A stretch of DNA of 52,822 nt from an uncultured bacterium (lineage in GTDB: Bacteria > Patescibacteriota > Minisyncoccia > UBA6257 > UBA9933): the NCBI GenBank assembly GCA_913009635.1, contig CAJVXI010000003.1, forward strand, positions 1-52,822, given 5' to 3'. Positions 9,617 through 49,490 of this stretch are shown in pieces (position 1 is the stretch's first letter; each line of letters starts with the position of its first letter). A program made the position numbers and the translations under genes. The notes beneath the pieces are model-generated. The model saw only the letters and a list, made by a program, of their open reading frames with translations. It did no database searches and was not told the origin of the DNA.

Positions 9617-9774
9617 CTCATTTCTTAATTTTAACCCTGACCGAGATGCCTCAATTTCGTTCTGGAATTATTCCCCAAAAAGCTTTATACTGTCTTAGAT
9701 CGGTCAGTTCTGGACCGAAGTCGCCCGCCTTCGCTCCGCCGAAGCTCGCAAGAGCGAAGGCGAGCTTCGCCAGA

Positions 9775-9877
9775 GCTACGGCGTGACAAGTCCGTCTTCG
9801 CCACGCTTCAGCGTGGCTACGGCGTGACAAGTCCGTCTTCGCCACGCTGAAGCGTAGCTACGGCGTAACAAGTCCGC
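9775..9877. repeat. 41-bp tandem palindromic repeat, about 2.5 copies
   Basis: GCTACGGCGTGACAAGTCCGTCTTCGCCACGCTTCAGCGTG at 9775, 9816 and 9857 (partial); internal hairpin CCACGCT..AGCGTGG. Confidence 0.9.
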
Positions 9878-9880
9878 TAT

Positions 9881-10014
9881 CAATACGCCGAAACTTTTAG
9901 TGAAGGCGATTAATCAATACGCCGAAACTTTTAGTGAAGGCGATTAATCAATACGCCGAAACTTTTAGTGAAGGCGATTAATCAATACGCCGAAACTTTT
10001 AGTGAAGGCGATTA
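9881..10014. repeat. 34-bp direct tandem repeat, 4 copies
   Basis: CAATACGCCGAAACTTTTAGTGAAGGCGATTAAT starting at 9881, 9915, 9949 and 9983. Confidence 0.95.
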
Positions 10015-10017
10015 AAT

Positions 10018-14015: not shown

Positions 14016-14594
14016 GCGACCTTTCTCTTTTTTAATTAATTCTATCACTTTCTCCACCAACTCTTTTGGATTTGAAGAATATACTATTTTCCCCGGACCT
14101 CGATGAGATTCAATAATTATCTTTTTCACTAAATCATCGGTTTCCCAAGAACCTTCTAAAATCCCGATTGGCTTTTGGTCTTCAAAAGCAATAGTGAATT
14201 CATTTAATGTTCCTAAACGACCGCATCCTACAATTACCGCGTCAGACGACCTAGTTAAAAGTAAATTTCTACCTGAATAATTAAAACCAGTATAAATAAT
14301 TAAGTCATGGTAGTCGGTCGGCAATTTATAATCCTGAATATGCTCTTTTTCGGTGGCAGCCGGTGAAAGCCCAATAACAATTCCCCCTTCGCTTTTAGCG
14401 CCTTTTGCCGCCCAAAGAGGAAAACCTGTTGTCGCGCCGTCAACTAAAACAGCGTCTTGTTTAATAATTTCCCTGCCTAATTCCTCGGCTAATCCACTGG
14501 CATCAGGTCCACAATGATCGGTTTCCGCCGCCCCAGAAATGCAGATTTTATATTTATAAGTTGTATGGCAAATATTGTTATCCATAATCAACAA
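14001..14594 (-). CDS. LOG-family / Rossmann-fold nucleotide-binding protein
   Basis: ICISGAAETDHCG ... GATTGFPLWAAKGAKSEGGIVIGLSPA ... VGCGRLGTLNEFTIAFEDQKPIGIL. Confidence 0.75.
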   Translation of the reverse strand: MLIMDNNICHTTYKYKICISGAAETDHCGPDASGLAEELGREIIKQDAVLVDGATTGFPLWAAKGAKSEGGIVIGLSPAATEKEHIQDYKLPTDYHDLIIYTGFNYSGRNLLLTRSSDAVIVGCGRLGTLNEFTIAFEDQKPIGILEGSWETDDLVKKIIIESHRGPGKIVYSSNPKELVEKVIELIKKEKGRNSTD

Positions 14595-14706
14595 GCCACT
14601 AGCGACTAGGGGTTAGCCACTAGGGTACATTAAAAAATTTTAACATAAAACAAATCAAAACCCTATACCCTAATCACTAGTGGCTAGTGGCTAGTGGCTA
14701 ATGGCT
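14592..14706. repeat. Interspersed palindromic repeat, family A, no cargo
   Basis: AGCCACTAGCGACTAGGGGTTAGCCACTAG ... CTAGTGGCTAGTGGCTAGTGGCTAATGGCT. Confidence 0.8.
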
Positions 14707-16093
14707 ATAAAATAACCTCATCATTCATTGAAGGAATATCAACTTCTATGGCAAATTCATCTTTTATTTTTTGAGCTAACGGTATCATCTGATCTCCTTC
14801 CCCTTGGACTATAAATACTTTTTTAAGTTTCGTTCTTTGCGGCTTAATCCAACTTAAAAGCTTTAATTTATCAGCATGAGCTGAATATCCTCCAATCGCC
14901 GCAACCCGGCATTTAACTTGAACTTTTTTTCCAAAAATTTTCACGAAATTTGTTGATGTAAGTCCACGCTTAATAGCCCTATTGCCGTCAAAAATCCTTC
15001 TTCCCAATGAACCCATTGCTTGATAACCAATAAACAAAATAGTGCTTTTAGGGTCAGGCAAGTAAAGACGTTCATGATGAATAATTCTTCCGCCCTGCGA
15101 CATTCCAGATCCGGCAATAATAACTTTTGGTGGCGCCACGTTTTTAATCTTCTTTGATTGTTCTGTTTTTAAGGTAAATTTCAAGCCGGGAAAATTAAAT
15201 ATTAAATCCCCTGATTTTGCCAGATTAATCGCCTCTTTATCAAAATATTCCGAATTGGAAGAATATTTTTTATAAACTTCGGTTAATTTAATAGCCAATG
15301 GACTGTCAATAAAAATTGGAACTTTAGGTATTCTTTTATTTTCCACCAAACTGTTTAATTCATATAAAAGATCCTGAGTTCTTTCCATGGCGAAAGCCGG
15401 AATCATTAATGTGCCACCAACTTTAAAAGTTTCCTCAATTAAATCCTCAAGCATATCCTTTCGTTTATTTAAATTTTCATGTATTCGATTTCCGTAAGTT
15501 GATTCAATTAAAACGTAATCAGCTTCCGGTAAACTTTCCGTGTCTTTAACTAAAGGAGTGGCAACATTCCCTAAATCTCCGGAAAAGATAACTTTTTTGC
15601 CTTCTTTATTGGAAACCCTAATAAAACTTGAACCAAGAATGTGTCCTGCATCAAAAAATTCAGCTTCTAAACCGTTAATTTTTATTTTCTGATGATAATC
15701 TATTCCCTTCCACAAACTCAGCGCACCTTGAACATCTTCGGTATTATAGATGGGCGCAAGGTTTTTCCTTTTAGCTTCCTTCCCTAAAATACCTTCTGAA
15801 TCAAGTAAAAGATACTCGGCAAATTCTTTTGTTGGTTTGGTTGAAAAAATCTGACCACGAAATCCGTCTTTATAGAGTTTAGGCAAACGGCCAATATGAT
15901 CGATATGAGCATGGGTAATTAGAACAACTTTGATTTCTTTTGGATTATAAGGAAATGGCTTAAAATTAAGTCGTTCACAAAAATTACTTCCTTGATATAA
16001 TCCACAATCAACTAATATCTTTGATTTTCCTTCTTCTATTAAATAATTAGCGCCAGTAACCGTCTTGGTCCCGCCATAAAAAATGAGCTTCAT
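14705..16093 (-). CDS. MBL-fold / beta-CASP RNA-processing exonuclease family
   Basis: LITHAHIDHIGRLPKL, SGDLGN, STYGNRIHE, GSGMSQGGRIIHH, YSAHAD. Confidence 0.9.
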   Translation of the reverse strand: MKLIFYGGTKTVTGANYLIEEGKSKILVDCGLYQGSNFCERLNFKPFPYNPKEIKVVLITHAHIDHIGRLPKLYKDGFRGQIFSTKPTKEFAEYLLLDSEGILGKEAKRKNLAPIYNTEDVQGALSLWKGIDYHQKIKINGLEAEFFDAGHILGSSFIRVSNKEGKKVIFSGDLGNVATPLVKDTESLPEADYVLIESTYGNRIHENLNKRKDMLEDLIEETFKVGGTLMIPAFAMERTQDLLYELNSLVENKRIPKVPIFIDSPLAIKLTEVYKKYSSNSEYFDKEAINLAKSGDLIFNFPGLKFTLKTEQSKKIKNVAPPKVIIAGSGMSQGGRIIHHERLYLPDPKSTILFIGYQAMGSLGRRIFDGNRAIKRGLTSTNFVKIFGKKVQVKCRVAAIGGYSAHADKLKLLSWIKPQRTKLKKVFIVQGEGDQMIPLAQKIKDEFAIEVDIPSMNDEVIL

Positions 16094-18785: not shown

Positions 18786-19211
18786 TTATATATCAAACAC
18801 TAAATCTGTCTGCCATACGTTAACTTTTAGTTTAATATCAACATCCTGATAGGTTACAGCTTTTATATCCTCATCAAATCTTTCTATCGGATAAGATATT
18901 AATTCTACCTCTAATTGATATTCTTTTTCGTTTAATACTTGATACTTAATACTAGATACTAAATACACACACTGATTAATTTGCGCTTTAGCTAAAATCT
19001 CATTAAGAAAATCCACTAAAAGCGAATTTATATCCATTGATTGAATTTTGATTTTAGTTTTTGGTTTTTGATTTTTAGTTTTTAAGTTTTTAATTTTTGA
19101 TGATAAAATTTGCGCCATTGCTTCCGTGGCGTTAATAAACAATTCCTCAATTGTTTTTCCGTAAATTCTCATTCGCAATTCAGCTGGATGAGGAAGAATT
19201 TCGTATTTCAT
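18786..19211 (-). CDS. Archease (RtcB activator)
   Basis: MKYEILPHPAELRMRIYGKTIEELFINATEAMAQIL ... DINSLLVDFLNEILA ... VTYQDVDIK. Confidence 0.85.
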   Translation of the reverse strand: MKYEILPHPAELRMRIYGKTIEELFINATEAMAQILSSKIKNLKTKNQKPKTKIKIQSMDINSLLVDFLNEILAKAQINQCVYLVSSIKYQVLNEKEYQLEVELISYPIERFDEDIKAVTYQDVDIKLKVNVWQTDLVFDI

Positions 19212-23390: not shown

Positions 23391-23402
23391 TCATACTAGT
23401 GG

Positions 23403-24263
23403 CTAGTGGTTAATCACCAAGTCAAGTAGTACCTCCTCATAATCTAATCTTCCGGATTTAACCAATGGATCATAATCGGCTATTTTTTGAACTAATCTTA
23501 CTGATTGAGCTTGACTGGCTAATATATTAAAAATTTTCGCCGGCTCTTCTTGATTAGAAAACAAAATTTCCAAATTTCTTATTTTTTGCGAAAATGACTG
23601 ACTGCTAATAAGGTCCATTATTAAATAATACGCGTTTTGTTTGACGTTTGGAGTCATAATATAATCACTAATTTCTTCAATTTTATTTATATCAATAATA
23701 TTCTCTTTAACTAAAGACAGCTTCTCTATTTCATTAACCAATCCCCAACTATCCCCGCTAAAACTTTCCGCCAAAAAATTAATTGCTGTCGAAGTCAGAT
23801 TAATCTCTCTCTTATTCACTTCTTTTTTAATAAAATGCCTTAATCTTTCGCCTTCTAACTTATTAAATTCCTGAAATTTAAGCTCAGAAGCCGCTGTTTC
23901 TTTGTTAATTAAAAAATCAAACCCAACAGGTGGCTTGTTGTCTTCAGAAATGATTAACACTAAATTATGTAAAGGAAGCTGTACTTTAAGAAATTCTTTT
24001 AATTCTTTGCGCTGACCAATGGAATAAGCGCTTATTTTAAAAAAAGCATTTTCTAAAATTACCAACTTTTTACTTACAAAAAGCGACTGGGTAGTTGTAA
24101 ATTCTCGTAAGCGGTCAAATTCTTCCTGCTTATCTCCGTTTTGACCAGAAAAATCAAAATATCCTAAATTCAAAGCTGAATATTTTTTGCTGTAATCATC
24201 AACTAATTCTTTTATTTTTTTTTGACGCCGGTAGGAATCTAAACCGTATAAATAAATAATCAT
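23403..24263 (-). CDS. holA: DNA polymerase III subunit delta
   Basis: MIIYLYGLDSYRRQKKIKELV ... SLFVSKKLVILENAF ... INFLAESFSGDSWGLVNEIEKL; start at MIIYLY preferred. Confidence 0.8.
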   Translation of the reverse strand: MIIYLYGLDSYRRQKKIKELVDDYSKKYSALNLGYFDFSGQNGDKQEEFDRLREFTTTQSLFVSKKLVILENAFFKISAYSIGQRKELKEFLKVQLPLHNLVLIISEDNKPPVGFDFLINKETAASELKFQEFNKLEGERLRHFIKKEVNKREINLTSTAINFLAESFSGDSWGLVNEIEKLSLVKENIIDINKIEEISDYIMTPNVKQNAYYLIMDLISSQSFSQKIRNLEILFSNQEEPAKIFNILASQAQSVRLVQKIADYDPLVKSGRLDYEEVLLDLVINH

Positions 24264-24437
24264 GTAAAAGCACCAAATTTCAAGCACCAAATTCCAAATA
24301 AATTTCAAATTCCAATTTCCAAAATTCCAAACACGACGGGTTTTGGTCATTAGAATTTTGGGTATTGGATATTACCCCTCGGTCCTGAGACTCTCGAGGT
24401 CGAAGGATTTGGGATTTGTTATTTGTGATTTGAAATT
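24264..24437. repeat. Interspersed palindromic repeat, family B
   Basis: CACCAAATTTCAAGCACCAAATTCC...AAACACGACGGGTTTTGGTCATTAGAATTTTGGG...GGGATTTGTTATTTGTGATTTGAAATTT; encodes the C-terminus of the downstream-strand CTP synthase ORF. Confidence 0.8.
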
Positions 24438-26062: not shown

Positions 26063-26152
26063 TTAGTAATTAGCCAATAGAATTTAGCCACTATAGTTAA
26101 AAATTAAAATTAAAACCATAAACCCTAGTGGCTAGTGGCTAGTGATTAATTA
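26063..26152. repeat. Interspersed palindromic repeat, family A, no cargo
   Basis: TTAGTAATTAGCCAATAGAATTTAGCCACTATAG ... CCCTAGTGGCTAGTGGCTAGTGATTAATTA. Confidence 0.75.
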
Positions 26153-27487
26153 TCTTTCCCCATAAATTATTTCTTTTGGCGGAATTAGTTTCGGATTAGT
26201 AGGAATAGTAAAATAAAAAGTAGTGCCTCTATTAAGCTCGGATTCAGCCCGAATTTCACCACCATGACGCTTAATTACATTTCTAATAATATAAAGCCCA
26301 AGCCCCAAACCGCTTGGAACAGCTCTAGTAGCGTTTTCAGCCCTAAAAAATTTAGTAAATAATTTATTAATCTGAGTAGGCGGAATGCCAATACCAGTAT
26401 CTTTAACGCTTATTTGAATATACGGCTGGTCCTTAACGCGCTCAAGTCCAACAGTTACTTTACCGTTAGGCACATTATATTTAATAGCATTATCAACAAG
26501 ATTGAATAAAACCATTTTTAATTTTTGCGGATCAACATAAAGGACAATTGAAGGTTCTTCTGGTTTTTGAAAATAAAGCTTAATACCGGATTGTTTTGCC
26601 AACAGCATTAATTCACCAAGAATTTCTTCGAGAAAGCTTATGATATTAACATTCTCAAATTGATAACCAAAACGTCCTTCTTCAATTTTAGAGACATCCA
26701 ATAAATCGTTAATTGTCTTTAAAAGATTTCCGGCAGCTCCGAACCCAGTATCCGCCAACTCTTTTTGGCTTGGCGTTAAAGATTCTTTTGATAAAGATTC
26801 CAAAGCCCAATAAACAGCTGTTGATGGCGTTCTTAACTGATGAGCAGCAACAGTGATAAATTCACTTTTTGAACGCAAAATCGCGATTTCTCGAGTCCTA
26901 TCATGAACTAATTTTACAAACCCCAATAAATGGCCTGATGAATCAATAATTTTATTAGTTGTTACTCTTAATTCTGTTTTTGGTTCTTCAAAAGAAAAAT
27001 CAGCTATTTGAGGGTAAACGCCTACCTCAGACAATTTAATTACTAAAGGAGCTAAAGACGGATAAATTATCTGAGACAATAATTTTAAATTAGGCCCCTT
27101 AGCTTTTTCTAAATCAAATACTTTGCCAATAACTTCTTCTGGTCTAATACTAAAAATCGCTTCAGCTGCCCGATTAAAAATTAAAATCTTAAAATTCGGG
27201 TCGTAAGCAATAACGCCAATATTTAAATTTGAAACAATGCCCGTTAATTCATTACGTTCAAGTTTAATGTCTAAATTTGAACGCGCTAAACGAAGATTAA
27301 CAATAAAAATAATAGTCGCTAAAACAAAAAACGCAATGGCAGTCGTCAAAAACCAAACTCGCGGTAAATAAGGAAAATTAATAACAAGAATTATTAGAAC
27401 TAACGGCAAAAAAATCCAGAACAACCGCATTTCCGGCAAGCCAGCGTATAAAGCAAATTTTTTAAACTGACGCTGAAAAAATTTCAT
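26150..27487 (-). CDS. PAS-domain sensor histidine kinase
   Basis: FITVAAHQLRTPSTAVYWALE H-box, NLVDNAIKYNVPNG, DTGIGIPPTQ, GLGLGLYIIRNVIKRHGGEI. Confidence 0.92.
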   Translation of the reverse strand: MKFFQRQFKKFALYAGLPEMRLFWIFLPLVLIILVINFPYLPRVWFLTTAIAFFVLATIIFIVNLRLARSNLDIKLERNELTGIVSNLNIGVIAYDPNFKILIFNRAAEAIFSIRPEEVIGKVFDLEKAKGPNLKLLSQIIYPSLAPLVIKLSEVGVYPQIADFSFEEPKTELRVTTNKIIDSSGHLLGFVKLVHDRTREIAILRSKSEFITVAAHQLRTPSTAVYWALESLSKESLTPSQKELADTGFGAAGNLLKTINDLLDVSKIEEGRFGYQFENVNIISFLEEILGELMLLAKQSGIKLYFQKPEEPSIVLYVDPQKLKMVLFNLVDNAIKYNVPNGKVTVGLERVKDQPYIQISVKDTGIGIPPTQINKLFTKFFRAENATRAVPSGLGLGLYIIRNVIKRHGGEIRAESELNRGTTFYFTIPTNPKLIPPKEIIYGER

Positions 27488-40770: not shown

Positions 40771-41097
40771 ATGTTGTCTAAAAAATACCGTTTACCGATT
40801 CAAGAATTTTTAGGAAAGAGCTCTAAAAGTGTTAGGGGCGTATATTTTACAATCAAATCTAAAACTAATAATTTGTTGTTTAGTCGATTCGGCGTGGTTA
40901 TAAGTAGAAAGATAAGCAAGAGCGCGGTAAGACGTAATAAAATAAAAAGAATTATTTTCGATTTTATTAGATTCAAAGAATACTATTTAAAAGCTGGAAA
41001 AGATGTATTGGTTATCGTATCTCCACAAGTCAGTAAGTTGACGAAAATAGAGATAGAGGGAGAGCTGGAGAACATGTTAATAAAATGTAAAATTTAA
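40771..41097 (+). CDS. rnpA: Ribonuclease P protein component
   Basis: LFSRFGVVISRKISKSAVRRNKIKRIIFDFIR ... GKDVLVIVSPQ, position after rpmH. Confidence 0.9.
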   Translation: MLSKKYRLPIQEFLGKSSKSVRGVYFTIKSKTNNLLFSRFGVVISRKISKSAVRRNKIKRIIFDFIRFKEYYLKAGKDVLVIVSPQVSKLTKIEIEGELENMLIKCKI

Positions 41098-41210
41098 AAA
41101 TCAAAAATCAAAATGACAATGCAAAATTCTAAAATAAGTTATAAATAAAAACAACTTTAACATTTTAACTTGTCATTTTACATTTTGATATTTACATTTT
41201 TAATTTTTAT
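41083..41210. repeat. Interspersed palindromic repeat, family C, no cargo
   Basis: AAATGTAAAATTTAAAAATCAAAAATCAAAATGACAATGCAAAATTC ... CTTGTCATTTTACATTTTGATATTTACATTTTT; overlaps the rnpA stop. Confidence 0.78.
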
Positions 41211-41212
41211 CT

Positions 41213-41941
41213 ATGGCTAATTTATTTCATGAAATTTTATATCGTCCTCTATTTAACGCTTTAATTTTTTTATACCAAAATTTTTCTTTTCACGATCTTG
41301 GTATTGCTATTATTCTCCTGACTTTTTTAATTAGGCTAATTTTATTCCCTTTGTTTTATAAGGGCGCTAAGGATCAGGCGATTATGCAGCGCTTGGCGCC
41401 AAAAATTAAAGAAATTCAACGTAATCATAAACATAATAAAGAAAAACAAGCTCAAGCAATGTTAGCGCTTTATCGTCTTCATCGAGTTAACCCCTTTTCC
41501 AGTTTTTTGTTACTTATTGTCCAATTACCGATTATAATAGCTTTATATCGAGTTTTTTTACGGGGGCTTTCAAGCGATTCATTTAATATCTTATATTCTT
41601 TTATTGTTCAGCCGGATTCGTTAAATCTTTTTTCCTTAGGAATAATTGATTTAAGCACTCGTAATATTTTTGTTATAATTTTAGCGGTTGTTGCCCAATA
41701 TTTTCAGGGGAGATTGTCGCTTGCTCAAAATAAAAGCAGCGATACTAAATCATTGTCTCCTATGGAAAAAATGGGCAGGCAAATGGTTTTTATGGGTCCA
41801 GTCTTAACATTTGTTTTTTTATACGTGTTTAATCTACCGTCAGCTGTTGGTCTTTATTGGTTAACAACAACAGCATTTTCAGTTGTTCAACAGGTAGCAA
41901 TTAATAAACAATTAAAACAAAATGGAGAACTTACAAAATAA
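41213..41941 (+). CDS. yidC: Membrane protein insertase YidC/Oxa1
   Basis: LGIAIILLTFLIRLILFPLFYKGAKDQAIMQRLAPKIKEIQ ... LPSAVGLYWLTTTAFSVVQQ. Confidence 0.93.
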   Translation: MANLFHEILYRPLFNALIFLYQNFSFHDLGIAIILLTFLIRLILFPLFYKGAKDQAIMQRLAPKIKEIQRNHKHNKEKQAQAMLALYRLHRVNPFSSFLLLIVQLPIIIALYRVFLRGLSSDSFNILYSFIVQPDSLNLFSLGIIDLSTRNIFVIILAVVAQYFQGRLSLAQNKSSDTKSLSPMEKMGRQMVFMGPVLTFVFLYVFNLPSAVGLYWLTTTAFSVVQQVAINKQLKQNGELTK

Positions 41942-42350
41942 ACTTCAAAAACTTATTAAGCTAATGGGATTCGATGATTTCTCGATTAGTTATGACGCAG
42001 ATGGCAGTCGTTTTTTAATTTTTCTTAACGAAGGTGAAGATTTTAAGAAATTTTTACCATTTTTTGTAGCCGACTTAAATCATTTAGCTAAATTAATTGC
42101 AAAAAAAGATAAACTGGAAACGGTTTTTGTTGATGTAAATAATTACCGGCGTGAGCGTGAAAATTTAATTTTAGAGTTAGCCAGAGCGACTGCTAGAAAA
42201 GTTGTTGCTACAAACGAGGAGATTTCCTTGCCAATAATGAATGCTTATGAACGCCGATTAGTTCACTTGGAATTAGTTGGTCGACCAGATATAAGTACCG
42301 AGAGCACAGGAGAAGGCAAAGAGAGACGCGTGGTGATTAAACCGATTTAG
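41922..42350 (+). CDS. Jag/KhpB R3H-domain RNA-binding protein
   Basis: VDVNNYRRERENLILELARATARKV ... LPIMNAYERRLVHLELVGRPDISTESTGEGKERRVVIKP. Confidence 0.92.
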   Translation: MENLQNKLQKLIKLMGFDDFSISYDADGSRFLIFLNEGEDFKKFLPFFVADLNHLAKLIAKKDKLETVFVDVNNYRRERENLILELARATARKVVATNEEISLPIMNAYERRLVHLELVGRPDISTESTGEGKERRVVIKPI

Positions 42351-42756
42351 TTAGCCACTAGCCACTAGTATACCAATATGATAAATTCGTATAAAGATTT
42401 AATTGTTTGGCAAAAATCTTTTAATTTAGTTATAGAAATTTATAGATTAACTAATTTATTCCCGAAATCAGAAATTTACGGCTTAGTTGCCCAAATTCGC
42501 CGCTGTGCTGTTTCTATTCCCTCTAATATTGCAGAAGGTTTTGTAAGAAAACATCGAAAAGAATACGCTCAATTTATTTCTATTGCCTTTGGATCTGGCG
42601 CAGAATTGGAAACTCAGCTATTATTATCAAAGGCATTAAAAATGATGCCAGAAAAAGAATTTGTTAAATCAGAAGAATTATTAAATGAAATAATGAAAAT
42701 GTTAAATTCATTATTAACATCTTTAAGAAATTAACGTACTAGTGGCTAGTCGCTAA
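42351..42756. mobile_element. Inverted-repeat-flanked element (family A arms) carrying a four-helix-bundle ORF
   Basis: 42351-42370 TTAGCCACTAGCCACTAGTA versus 42737-42756 reverse complement TTAGCGACTAGCCACTAGTA, 19/20 identity. Confidence 0.75.
42378..42734 (+). CDS. Four-helix-bundle protein, S23/23S rRNA-intervening-sequence family
   Basis: YKDLIVWQKSFNLVIEIYRLTNLFPKSEIYGLVAQIRRCAVSIPSNIAEGFVRKHRKEYAQFISIAFGSGAELETQL. Confidence 0.92.
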   Translation: MINSYKDLIVWQKSFNLVIEIYRLTNLFPKSEIYGLVAQIRRCAVSIPSNIAEGFVRKHRKEYAQFISIAFGSGAELETQLLLSKALKMMPEKEFVKSEELLNEIMKMLNSLLTSLRN

Positions 42757-43885
42757 TCACTAATTTGTAAAGTATATTATCGTAGCGGTTGATAAACAGA
42801 AGCTGATTGTCTAAGATCGATAAACGAAAAGCGTCAATAGCTGATTTTGTTTCAGTGTAAATTATTTCAAATGTATTTTGTTCAATGTCCATTTCGTAAA
42901 TAAAATCTTCAAAATAGACGTTTCTTTTTAGATAATCATCCGGCAAAATTGGTTCTTGCGTTGAGCTGTGTGTCTGAGGAATAGCGCAATATATTTTATT
43001 TAAAGTGAGTAGGCACTTATTTGGCAATGTTGAGAAGTCAAAATTTGCTTGAGTTATTCCGTCGTCATTAATTAAATCCAAAGAAGAATTTCTTTTTTGG
43101 TCAACAAAGAATTTTATTCCTAAACTTCCGTCAGCTGACCAATTGGTCATTAAACCTCTTCCAGAGGCTATTTTTTTAAGAGTTTTATTTGTTATATTTA
43201 TTGACCAGATATCAGAATCAATTTGAGAAGATGGTTTTGGAAGCAGTAAAATATTTTCATTGGTTAGCCACTTTAGCTCAAGGTCTTTTTGGGAAAGAGA
43301 AATAATTTTAGTTGTTTTTGTTTCAGATATGTTTTTTGTGATTAAATCGCTTTTTCCGTTGTTGGTTTTCAGATAGGCAATTTTTTTGCTGTCTGGAGAA
43401 AAATCAGCTGCTGTAATTTCAGAAGGAAGTAATTCCCAAATTCTTTCAACTGCATTAAAGATATTAAATTGCGGTGAATCTCTTTTTCCGTATTTTATCA
43501 AAATTCTTTCGCCGTTGGCGCTGCTTTTTATTAATTGAATATTTTCTATTGGCTGAGAACTGATAATTTCATCTTCGGCGTTTTCTATAATTTTGAATAT
43601 TTTACCGTCTTGAGTAATATAGAAGATTTCGGCGGAGATAGTCAGTCCGCCTTCATCAAGGTTATGTCGGATGAAGTAATCAAAAATTGTCTGATCGCTG
43701 ATACTTTTTAGATTAGATGTTGGAGGTATCGGCGATATTGGAGGTGCAGGCGCGGTAATTATTGGAATTGTTGGAGATGTTGGCGGTGTTAAAATTTCCT
43801 GGGATTTTTTCCATGCAAAATAAATTCCACCTGCCAAAGCCAGAATACCAAAGATAACGCCGATTATAATGATTATTTTTCTCAT
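42746..43885 (-). CDS. Membrane-anchored TolB/beta-propeller-like protein
   Basis: N-terminal TM and Pro-rich linker; ADFSPDSKKIAYLK, TNWSADGSLGIK repeats. Confidence 0.6.
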   Translation of the reverse strand: MRKIIIIIGVIFGILALAGGIYFAWKKSQEILTPPTSPTIPIITAPAPPISPIPPTSNLKSISDQTIFDYFIRHNLDEGGLTISAEIFYITQDGKIFKIIENAEDEIISSQPIENIQLIKSSANGERILIKYGKRDSPQFNIFNAVERIWELLPSEITAADFSPDSKKIAYLKTNNGKSDLITKNISETKTTKIISLSQKDLELKWLTNENILLLPKPSSQIDSDIWSINITNKTLKKIASGRGLMTNWSADGSLGIKFFVDQKRNSSLDLINDDGITQANFDFSTLPNKCLLTLNKIYCAIPQTHSSTQEPILPDDYLKRNVYFEDFIYEMDIEQNTFEIIYTETKSAIDAFRLSILDNQLLFINRYDNILYKLVISD

Positions 43886-49275: not shown

Positions 49276-49490
49276 AAAATTAATTCAAAATGTAAATATC
49301 AAAAATCAAAATGACAAATTAAAATGTCAAAATTATTTCTTGCTTTTTAAAGTTAAAATGCTAGAAGCTAAGATATTTGCTATTTCAATAAGTTCATCTA
49401 ATAACCATTTTAATTCTGATTGCTCTTTTGAATTTTACACTGTCATTTTGCATTTTGATTTTTGATTTTTGATTTTAATTCAAACGTTCT
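49276..49490. repeat. Family C palindrome with internal decayed cargo
   Basis: AAAATGTAAATATCAAAAATCAAAATGACA ... TGTCATTTTGCATTTTGATTTTTGATTTTTGATTTT. Confidence 0.75.
49333..49440 (-). pseudogene. C-terminal remnant of a four-helix-bundle (S23-like) ORF
   Basis: ...QNLKWLLDELIEIANILASSILTLKSKK*, C-terminus only, inside the family C palindrome. Confidence 0.6.

Follow-up and report, generated by a model that had tools for sequence, protein, structure and literature searches.

The window analysed here, a stretch of 52,822 nucleotides, contains at positions 42351-42756 of the forward strand an element made up of a 5' array of short repeats, an S23 gene and an inverted 3' array. Evidence for the element comes from the arm search and from relatives lacking S23 at this site. 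Its upstream neighbour is jag/eloR (41922-42350, +), which carries an R3H domain (PF01424, 4.2e-15). The 5' arm (42351-42370, +) consists of approximately three heptamer units, TTAGCCA, CTAGCCA and CTAGTA, and starts one base past the jag stop codon (42348-42350), with no gap. It is followed by the gene for an S23/four-helix-bundle protein of 118 aa (42378-42734, +) and by the inverted 3' arm (42737-42764, minus strand) with about four units, which on the reverse complement read TTAGTGA, TTAGCGA, CTAGCCA and CTAGTA. The converging neighbour (42746-43885, -), with a weak match to TolB-like propellers, has its last codons and stop inside the 3' arm, which encodes ..VISD and a TAG stop. This layout had been described in the initial annotation of the DNA, and the sequence agreed with it in each of these respects: the arms TTAGCCACTAGCCACTAGTA (42351-42370, +) and TTAGCGACTAGCCACTAGTA (42737-42756, -) are identical at 19 of 20 positions, the left arm adjoins jag directly and the converging ORF has its end within the right one. 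That annotation did not mention that each arm is built of heptamers in tandem, (CTAGCCA)n, with the two arms inverted relative to each other. The right arm is also about one unit longer than the 20-bp match and reaches approximately position 42764. The transcript of 42345-42765 is predicted to fold with a closing stem of about 20 bp (z -3.8 relative to shuffles), in agreement with the earlier description of a stem-bounded element with terminal inverted repeats around the S23 ORF. The element is located outside any 23S rRNA gene, at a junction of jag and another protein gene, and no rRNA family match was found nearby. S23 is its sole ORF; neither a recognised transposase ORF, as expected of an IS, nor a relation to one, as expected of a MITE, was seen.

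The earlier S23-like call on the enclosed ORF was borne out by profile searches, with scores far above the curated cut-offs (PF05635, E 3.4e-39, 133.8 bits against 33.8; TIGR02436, 1.2e-36, 125.2 bits against 24). The AlphaFold2 model (pLDDT 91) has four helices, at residues 5-25, 34-55, 60-86 and 92-117. Two solved relatives, 2GSC and 2RLD, contain five chains each (2GSC was matched by the S23 alignment at 3e-31), which is consistent with an S23 pentamer; we take both S23 and Avd to be pentameric. The accessory protein bAvd of diversity-generating retroelements has a homologous four-helix-bundle fold (PF22296 match, 7.3e-7), but it is encoded next to a reverse transcriptase, has no arrays and lacks the polar residues specific for S23. 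These residues, Q39, R42, S46, N50, E53, S73 and E76, are 91-100% conserved in S23 and mostly different in Avd. In the model, residues 39-53 are placed in helix 2 and residues 73 and 76 in helix 3; that they act in catalysis or in binding is a guess. S23 contains no recognised catalytic motif and no known nuclease motif. Pairwise dN/dS across S23 genes was approximately 0.04-0.27, mostly below 0.2, and the protein is under purifying selection. Assignment of the window protein to Avd was rejected, since it scored 31.3 bits with NF033474 against a cut-off of 80, and the only RVT_1 match in the genome is outside the window, on contig C16.

Inverted arrays around S23 genes

The source genome has 12 PF05635 genes, and inverted short tandem units were seen by eye in the flanks of all 12. 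Nearly every S23 locus of the genome has its own unit of 7 or 8 bp: CTAGCCA, TTCTAAA, TTCATAA, ACTTAAAT, TTACAACA, ACAACCT, TTGTTACA and AAGGATA, as well as ATTTCTA (in two near-identical copies), CCAAATT and a weaker AAAAAGTC type. For a wider survey we aligned locally the upstream flank of each gene with the reverse complement of its downstream flank and considered scores of at least 14. The sample comprised 80 S23 loci from approximately 20 phyla, including cultured Flavobacterium, Chryseobacterium, Dysgonomonas and Aquimarina. The threshold was reached by 51 of 74 S23 genes, compared with 12 of 227 other ORFs from the same loci and 5 of 148 mismatched flank pairs (Fisher p ~4e-28, a value which overstates independence, as the sequences are related). 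With more relatives included, 125 of 167 S23 loci passed, again from about 20 phyla, so that roughly one quarter of the S23 genes remained below the threshold. None of 12 Avd paralogs located next to reverse transcriptases passed, the top score being 11 (Fisher p 2e-7, with the same overstatement due to relatedness). The arrangement, which the initial annotation had called notable within protein-coding DNA, is no isolated oddity: inverted heptamer or octamer arrays are the rule for S23 genes.

In 231 kb of the source genome 50 arrays of period 7 were counted, compared with 1-3 in shuffled sequence; period 8 gave 11, multiples such as 14 gave 41, and periods 6, 9, 10 and 11 gave 1-3. Arrays of period 12 (14 arrays) and period 15 (14 arrays) likewise exceeded the shuffles in this sample. 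When the period, 7 or 8, was mapped on the S23 protein tree, 14 changes were required; 200 shuffles averaged 27 and never went below 21. Sequences of the units were common only to S23 proteins that are approximately 60-70% identical or more. As the period follows the tree and the unit is shared only among close S23 proteins, the units evolve fast and yet stay tied to their S23. A common purpose of the arrays in providing stop codons in all frames was considered and did not prove general: 2.15 frames on average were closed in sense and 1.69 in antisense orientation, and many units lack TAG. In one locus of the source genome (L006) and three loci of relatives (L053, L059, L061) the S23 ORF continues across the 3' array in the same frame and is joined to a prepilin-like protein, for example ..IPNSTKGFTVIELIV.. 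and ..LNSQKDGYLMIELI...

Arrays also occur without the gene. The arm pattern, allowing at most three mismatches, was found at six sites in the window and at none in 100 shuffles, and four of the six lie in arrays without the gene, at 14675-14701, 23394-23413 and 26123-26142. The first of these is part of an inverted pair of CTAGCCA-unit arrays between two ORFs (14592-14708), which is REPIN- or MITE-like in appearance. The other two are solo CTAGCCA-unit arrays on the minus strand, one overlapping the end of ORF 23403-24350 (23394-23413) and one just past the end of ORF 26150-27487 (26123-26144). Out of 96 arrays located away from S23 in the 231-kb sample, 56 matched the arms of the genome's own S23 genes with a score of at least 16, compared with 14 when the arms were reversed without complementing. 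An inverted partner within 220 bp was present for 24 of the 96, compared with 6 in the control. For many gene-less arrays the genome has no matching S23. Judged by their units, gene-less arrays such as that at 14592-14708 are MITE/REPIN-like relatives of the S23 element. Chance bracketing of S23 by generic intergenic repeats was ruled out by the control ORFs, the mismatched flanks, the reversed arms, the Avd paralogs and the Fisher tests. Heptamer arrays with a TTTTGAT unit were noted at 19041-19101, 41081-41113 and 49444-49476 of the window; no matching S23 was found in the genome, and they are possibly the orphan of a lost S23 element. The window also contains, at 9774-10015, 2.5 copies of a 41-bp repeat and, after them, a 34-bp direct repeat in four perfect copies.

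Copies, filled sites and empty sites

Two S23 copies of the genome, on C1 and C7, have exactly 476 bp in common (95%), and both ends of the shared stretch fall within the arrays; dS between these copies is 0.28 and dN 0.012. Filled and empty sites were seen in close relatives. Flanks in genome G021 matched those of its sister G020 mostly at 91-93%, with one at 84%. At the junction of a sigma-factor gene and dnaG, one of the two sisters has an S23 element; the other has an array without the gene, belonging to the family of the S23 that G020 itself carries. G017 and G001 lack both S23 and array at this junction. Another site is occupied by S23 in G021 but not in G020, G017 or G001.

Three further sites were found on complete plasmids of cyanobacteria. 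The first is filled in Trichormus and Scytonema and empty in Aulosira and Fremyella plasmids that are 97-98% identical; here the 5-bp sequence GTAAT stands at both ends of the element and a single time where the element is missing; a decayed remnant persists on a Nostoc plasmid. The second is filled in Nostoc C052 and N. edaphicum, empty in two C057 plasmids and occupied by a gene-less hairpin in ATCC 53789. The third is filled in Calothrix brevissima and empty in Tolypothrix, Aulosira and N. carneum. Only one of all the sites, that with GTAAT, shows a clean target duplication; at the other two plasmid sites the intergenic spacer was replaced. Judged from these alignments, it is the unit from array to array that moves between sites.

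The check proposed earlier, a look for an empty site downstream of jag, speaks for mobility: none of the 28 relatives that could be read at this position has S23 there. Four of them (L046, L037, L029 and L043) have a homologue of the converging gene directly after jag, without S23, and in L037 a CTAGCCA-type array alone is located downstream of jag. The window site is weaker evidence for mobility than the plasmids, because its relatives are distant. A search of 2.9 million viral contigs recovered only some 20-25 S23 loci, and named phage records yielded none, so that S23 elements look mainly chromosomal and plasmid-borne.

Nature of the element and its relation to known repeats

Our preferred reading, to which we give a probability of about 0.6, is that the window locus belongs to a widespread family of mobile elements of approximately 0.4-0.5 kb, with S23 as sole gene between inverted arrays of 7- or 8-bp units, and that the intervening sequences (IVSs) of rRNA are rare insertions of this family. 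We infer a direct part for S23, in binding the arrays or in catalysing movement; cognate recognition is suggested by the co-occurrence of gene and unit. S23, whose two solved relatives are pentamers, would recognise the arrays of its own element, whether in DNA or in the transcript, and would promote copying of the unit into gene-gene junctions, either as the catalyst or as an accessory to a host enzyme. Gene-less arrays could be moved in trans, in a relationship resembling that of REPINs and RAYTs. The long stem predicted for the transcript could be cut by RNase III, which would let copies survive within operons and, rarely, within 23S rRNA, in which case they are called IVSs.

The principal competitor, which we regard as unlikely, makes S23 a captured passenger of heptamer arrays mobilised by an unrelated enzyme, such as a RAYT/Y1 transposase, a reverse transcriptase or a DDE transposase. 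The lack of a known nuclease motif in S23 would fit this, as would the excess of gene-less arrays over S23 copies and the presence in the source genome of two Y1_Tnp (RAYT-like) genes, L047 (C8:31224) and L048 (C15:3045), besides the single RVT_1 match. However, S23 is the gene found between arrays in about 20 phyla, the units track S23 relatedness, and the gene is under purifying selection. The RAYT genes have palindromes of their own, which are not heptamers (L047 is flanked by AAGGACATC..GATGTCCTT), and profile searches gave no match to RVT_1 or Y1_Tnp in G005, G057, G016 and G025, each with 4-8 S23 genes. RAYT as the source of the heptamers was rejected on these grounds, and the resident reverse transcriptase found no support as an obligate partner. 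A helper enzyme of another kind, such as a DDE, serine or tyrosine recombinase, is possible, the partner survey having covered RVT_1 and Y1_Tnp.

Two further readings were also weighed. If S23 bound RNA and regulated its own expression, with the arrays serving as bidirectional terminators or as sites of processing and with little or no mobility of the cassette, the strong stem predicted in the transcript would be accounted for, and so would the position of the arrays at gene ends, where they provide stop codons. The units of the 5' arm are moreover enriched in (N)AG triplets in the sense strand at a spacing of 7-8 nt (80 arms compared with 29 on the opposite strand), reminiscent of TRAP sites. 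Such a regulatory cassette is nevertheless improbable in our judgement, given the filled and empty sites in close relatives and the near-identical copies at unrelated sites. Least probable of all, in our judgement, is an intervening sequence excised from mRNA by RNase III, with movement of DNA incidental, as the initial annotation implied. The anatomy is that of the 23S rRNA IVSs (PMC4990558), including a predicted stem of about 20 bp, but none of the 60 loci scanned, out of 80, is in rRNA, and the many gene-less copies exist at the level of DNA.

Returning to the mobile element family, among its closest known counterparts is the S23-bearing IVS, the origin and function of which were called unclear more than 25 years after discovery (PMC4990558). 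The parallel drawn by the initial annotation stands: the 23S rRNA IVS of Coxiella is closed by a terminal stem of 28 bp, and its S23p ORF is preceded by GACAGAT heptamers in tandem (PMC4990558), and in Coxiella, Leptospira and Xanthomonas S23 is placed between terminal inverted repeats, as here. Sporadic distribution and suspected mobility (PMC4990558) are also common to both. The window element differs in adjoining jag, in belonging to a set with units that differ at nearly every locus, and in that filled and empty sites are seen directly. Inserts of the 23S_rRNA_IVP type also occur in rRNA genes of CPR bacteria (PMC11270868). Given 0 of 60 scanned S23 loci within an rRNA gene, and arrays as the rule, rRNA IVSs look exceptional, and the economical reading is that they are S23-heptamer elements which landed in rDNA.

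With REPINs and RAYTs the S23 elements share dispersed hairpins of short repeats accompanied by one or a few copies of a cognate gene flanked by matching repeats; they differ in having a four-helix-bundle protein and no Y1 transposase, and tandem units of 7 or 8 bp rather than palindromes. Intergenic heptamer arrays are likewise known as cyanobacterial STRRs, as GGGAATC repeats in Xanthomonas (PMC4692102) and as TAACTGA repeats in Beggiatoaceae (PMC4679880). These two papers describe, for Xanthomonas, 70-75 convergent inverted pairs per genome, generally with no mobile-element association (PMC4692102), and, for Beggiatoaceae, the speculation that the mobile element could be a protein which binds the repeats (PMC4679880); a text search of both gave no link to S23. 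TAACTGA or GACAGAT units were not found among the S23 loci fetched. More generally, the open-access papers searched contained no report of a general link between S23 and heptamer arrays. A more far-reaching version, tentative and in our view doubtful, is that S23 pentamers are a new class of transposition proteins which recognise terminal arrays of period 7 or 8 and carry out or directly license strand transfer through a near-invariant polar face that Avd does not conserve, Q39-R42-S46-N50-E53 of helix 2 together with S73/E76 of helix 3, with cyanobacterial STRRs, the Xanthomonas and Beggiatoa repeats and rRNA IVSs all being traces of one superfamily.

S23 has long been familiar solely as a small passenger gene of bacterial rRNA genes. 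The element family may explain the source of the rRNA inserts and of many bacterial heptamer repeats; one family would then account for S23-bearing IVSs and for several repeat families so far without a known source, each of which would be predicted to have its own S23 gene. It would also assign a role to proteins now annotated as 'four helix bundle protein' or 'S23 ribosomal protein'. These predictions are testable in cultured bacteria, as both filled and empty sites are available on complete plasmids from cyanobacteria in culture. On plasmids of Nostoc, Anabaena, Calothrix and Pseudanabaena (L242-L245), S23 elements were seen to interrupt operon junctions, for example cas6-cas4; others stand between genes for ribonucleotide reductase or for secretion.
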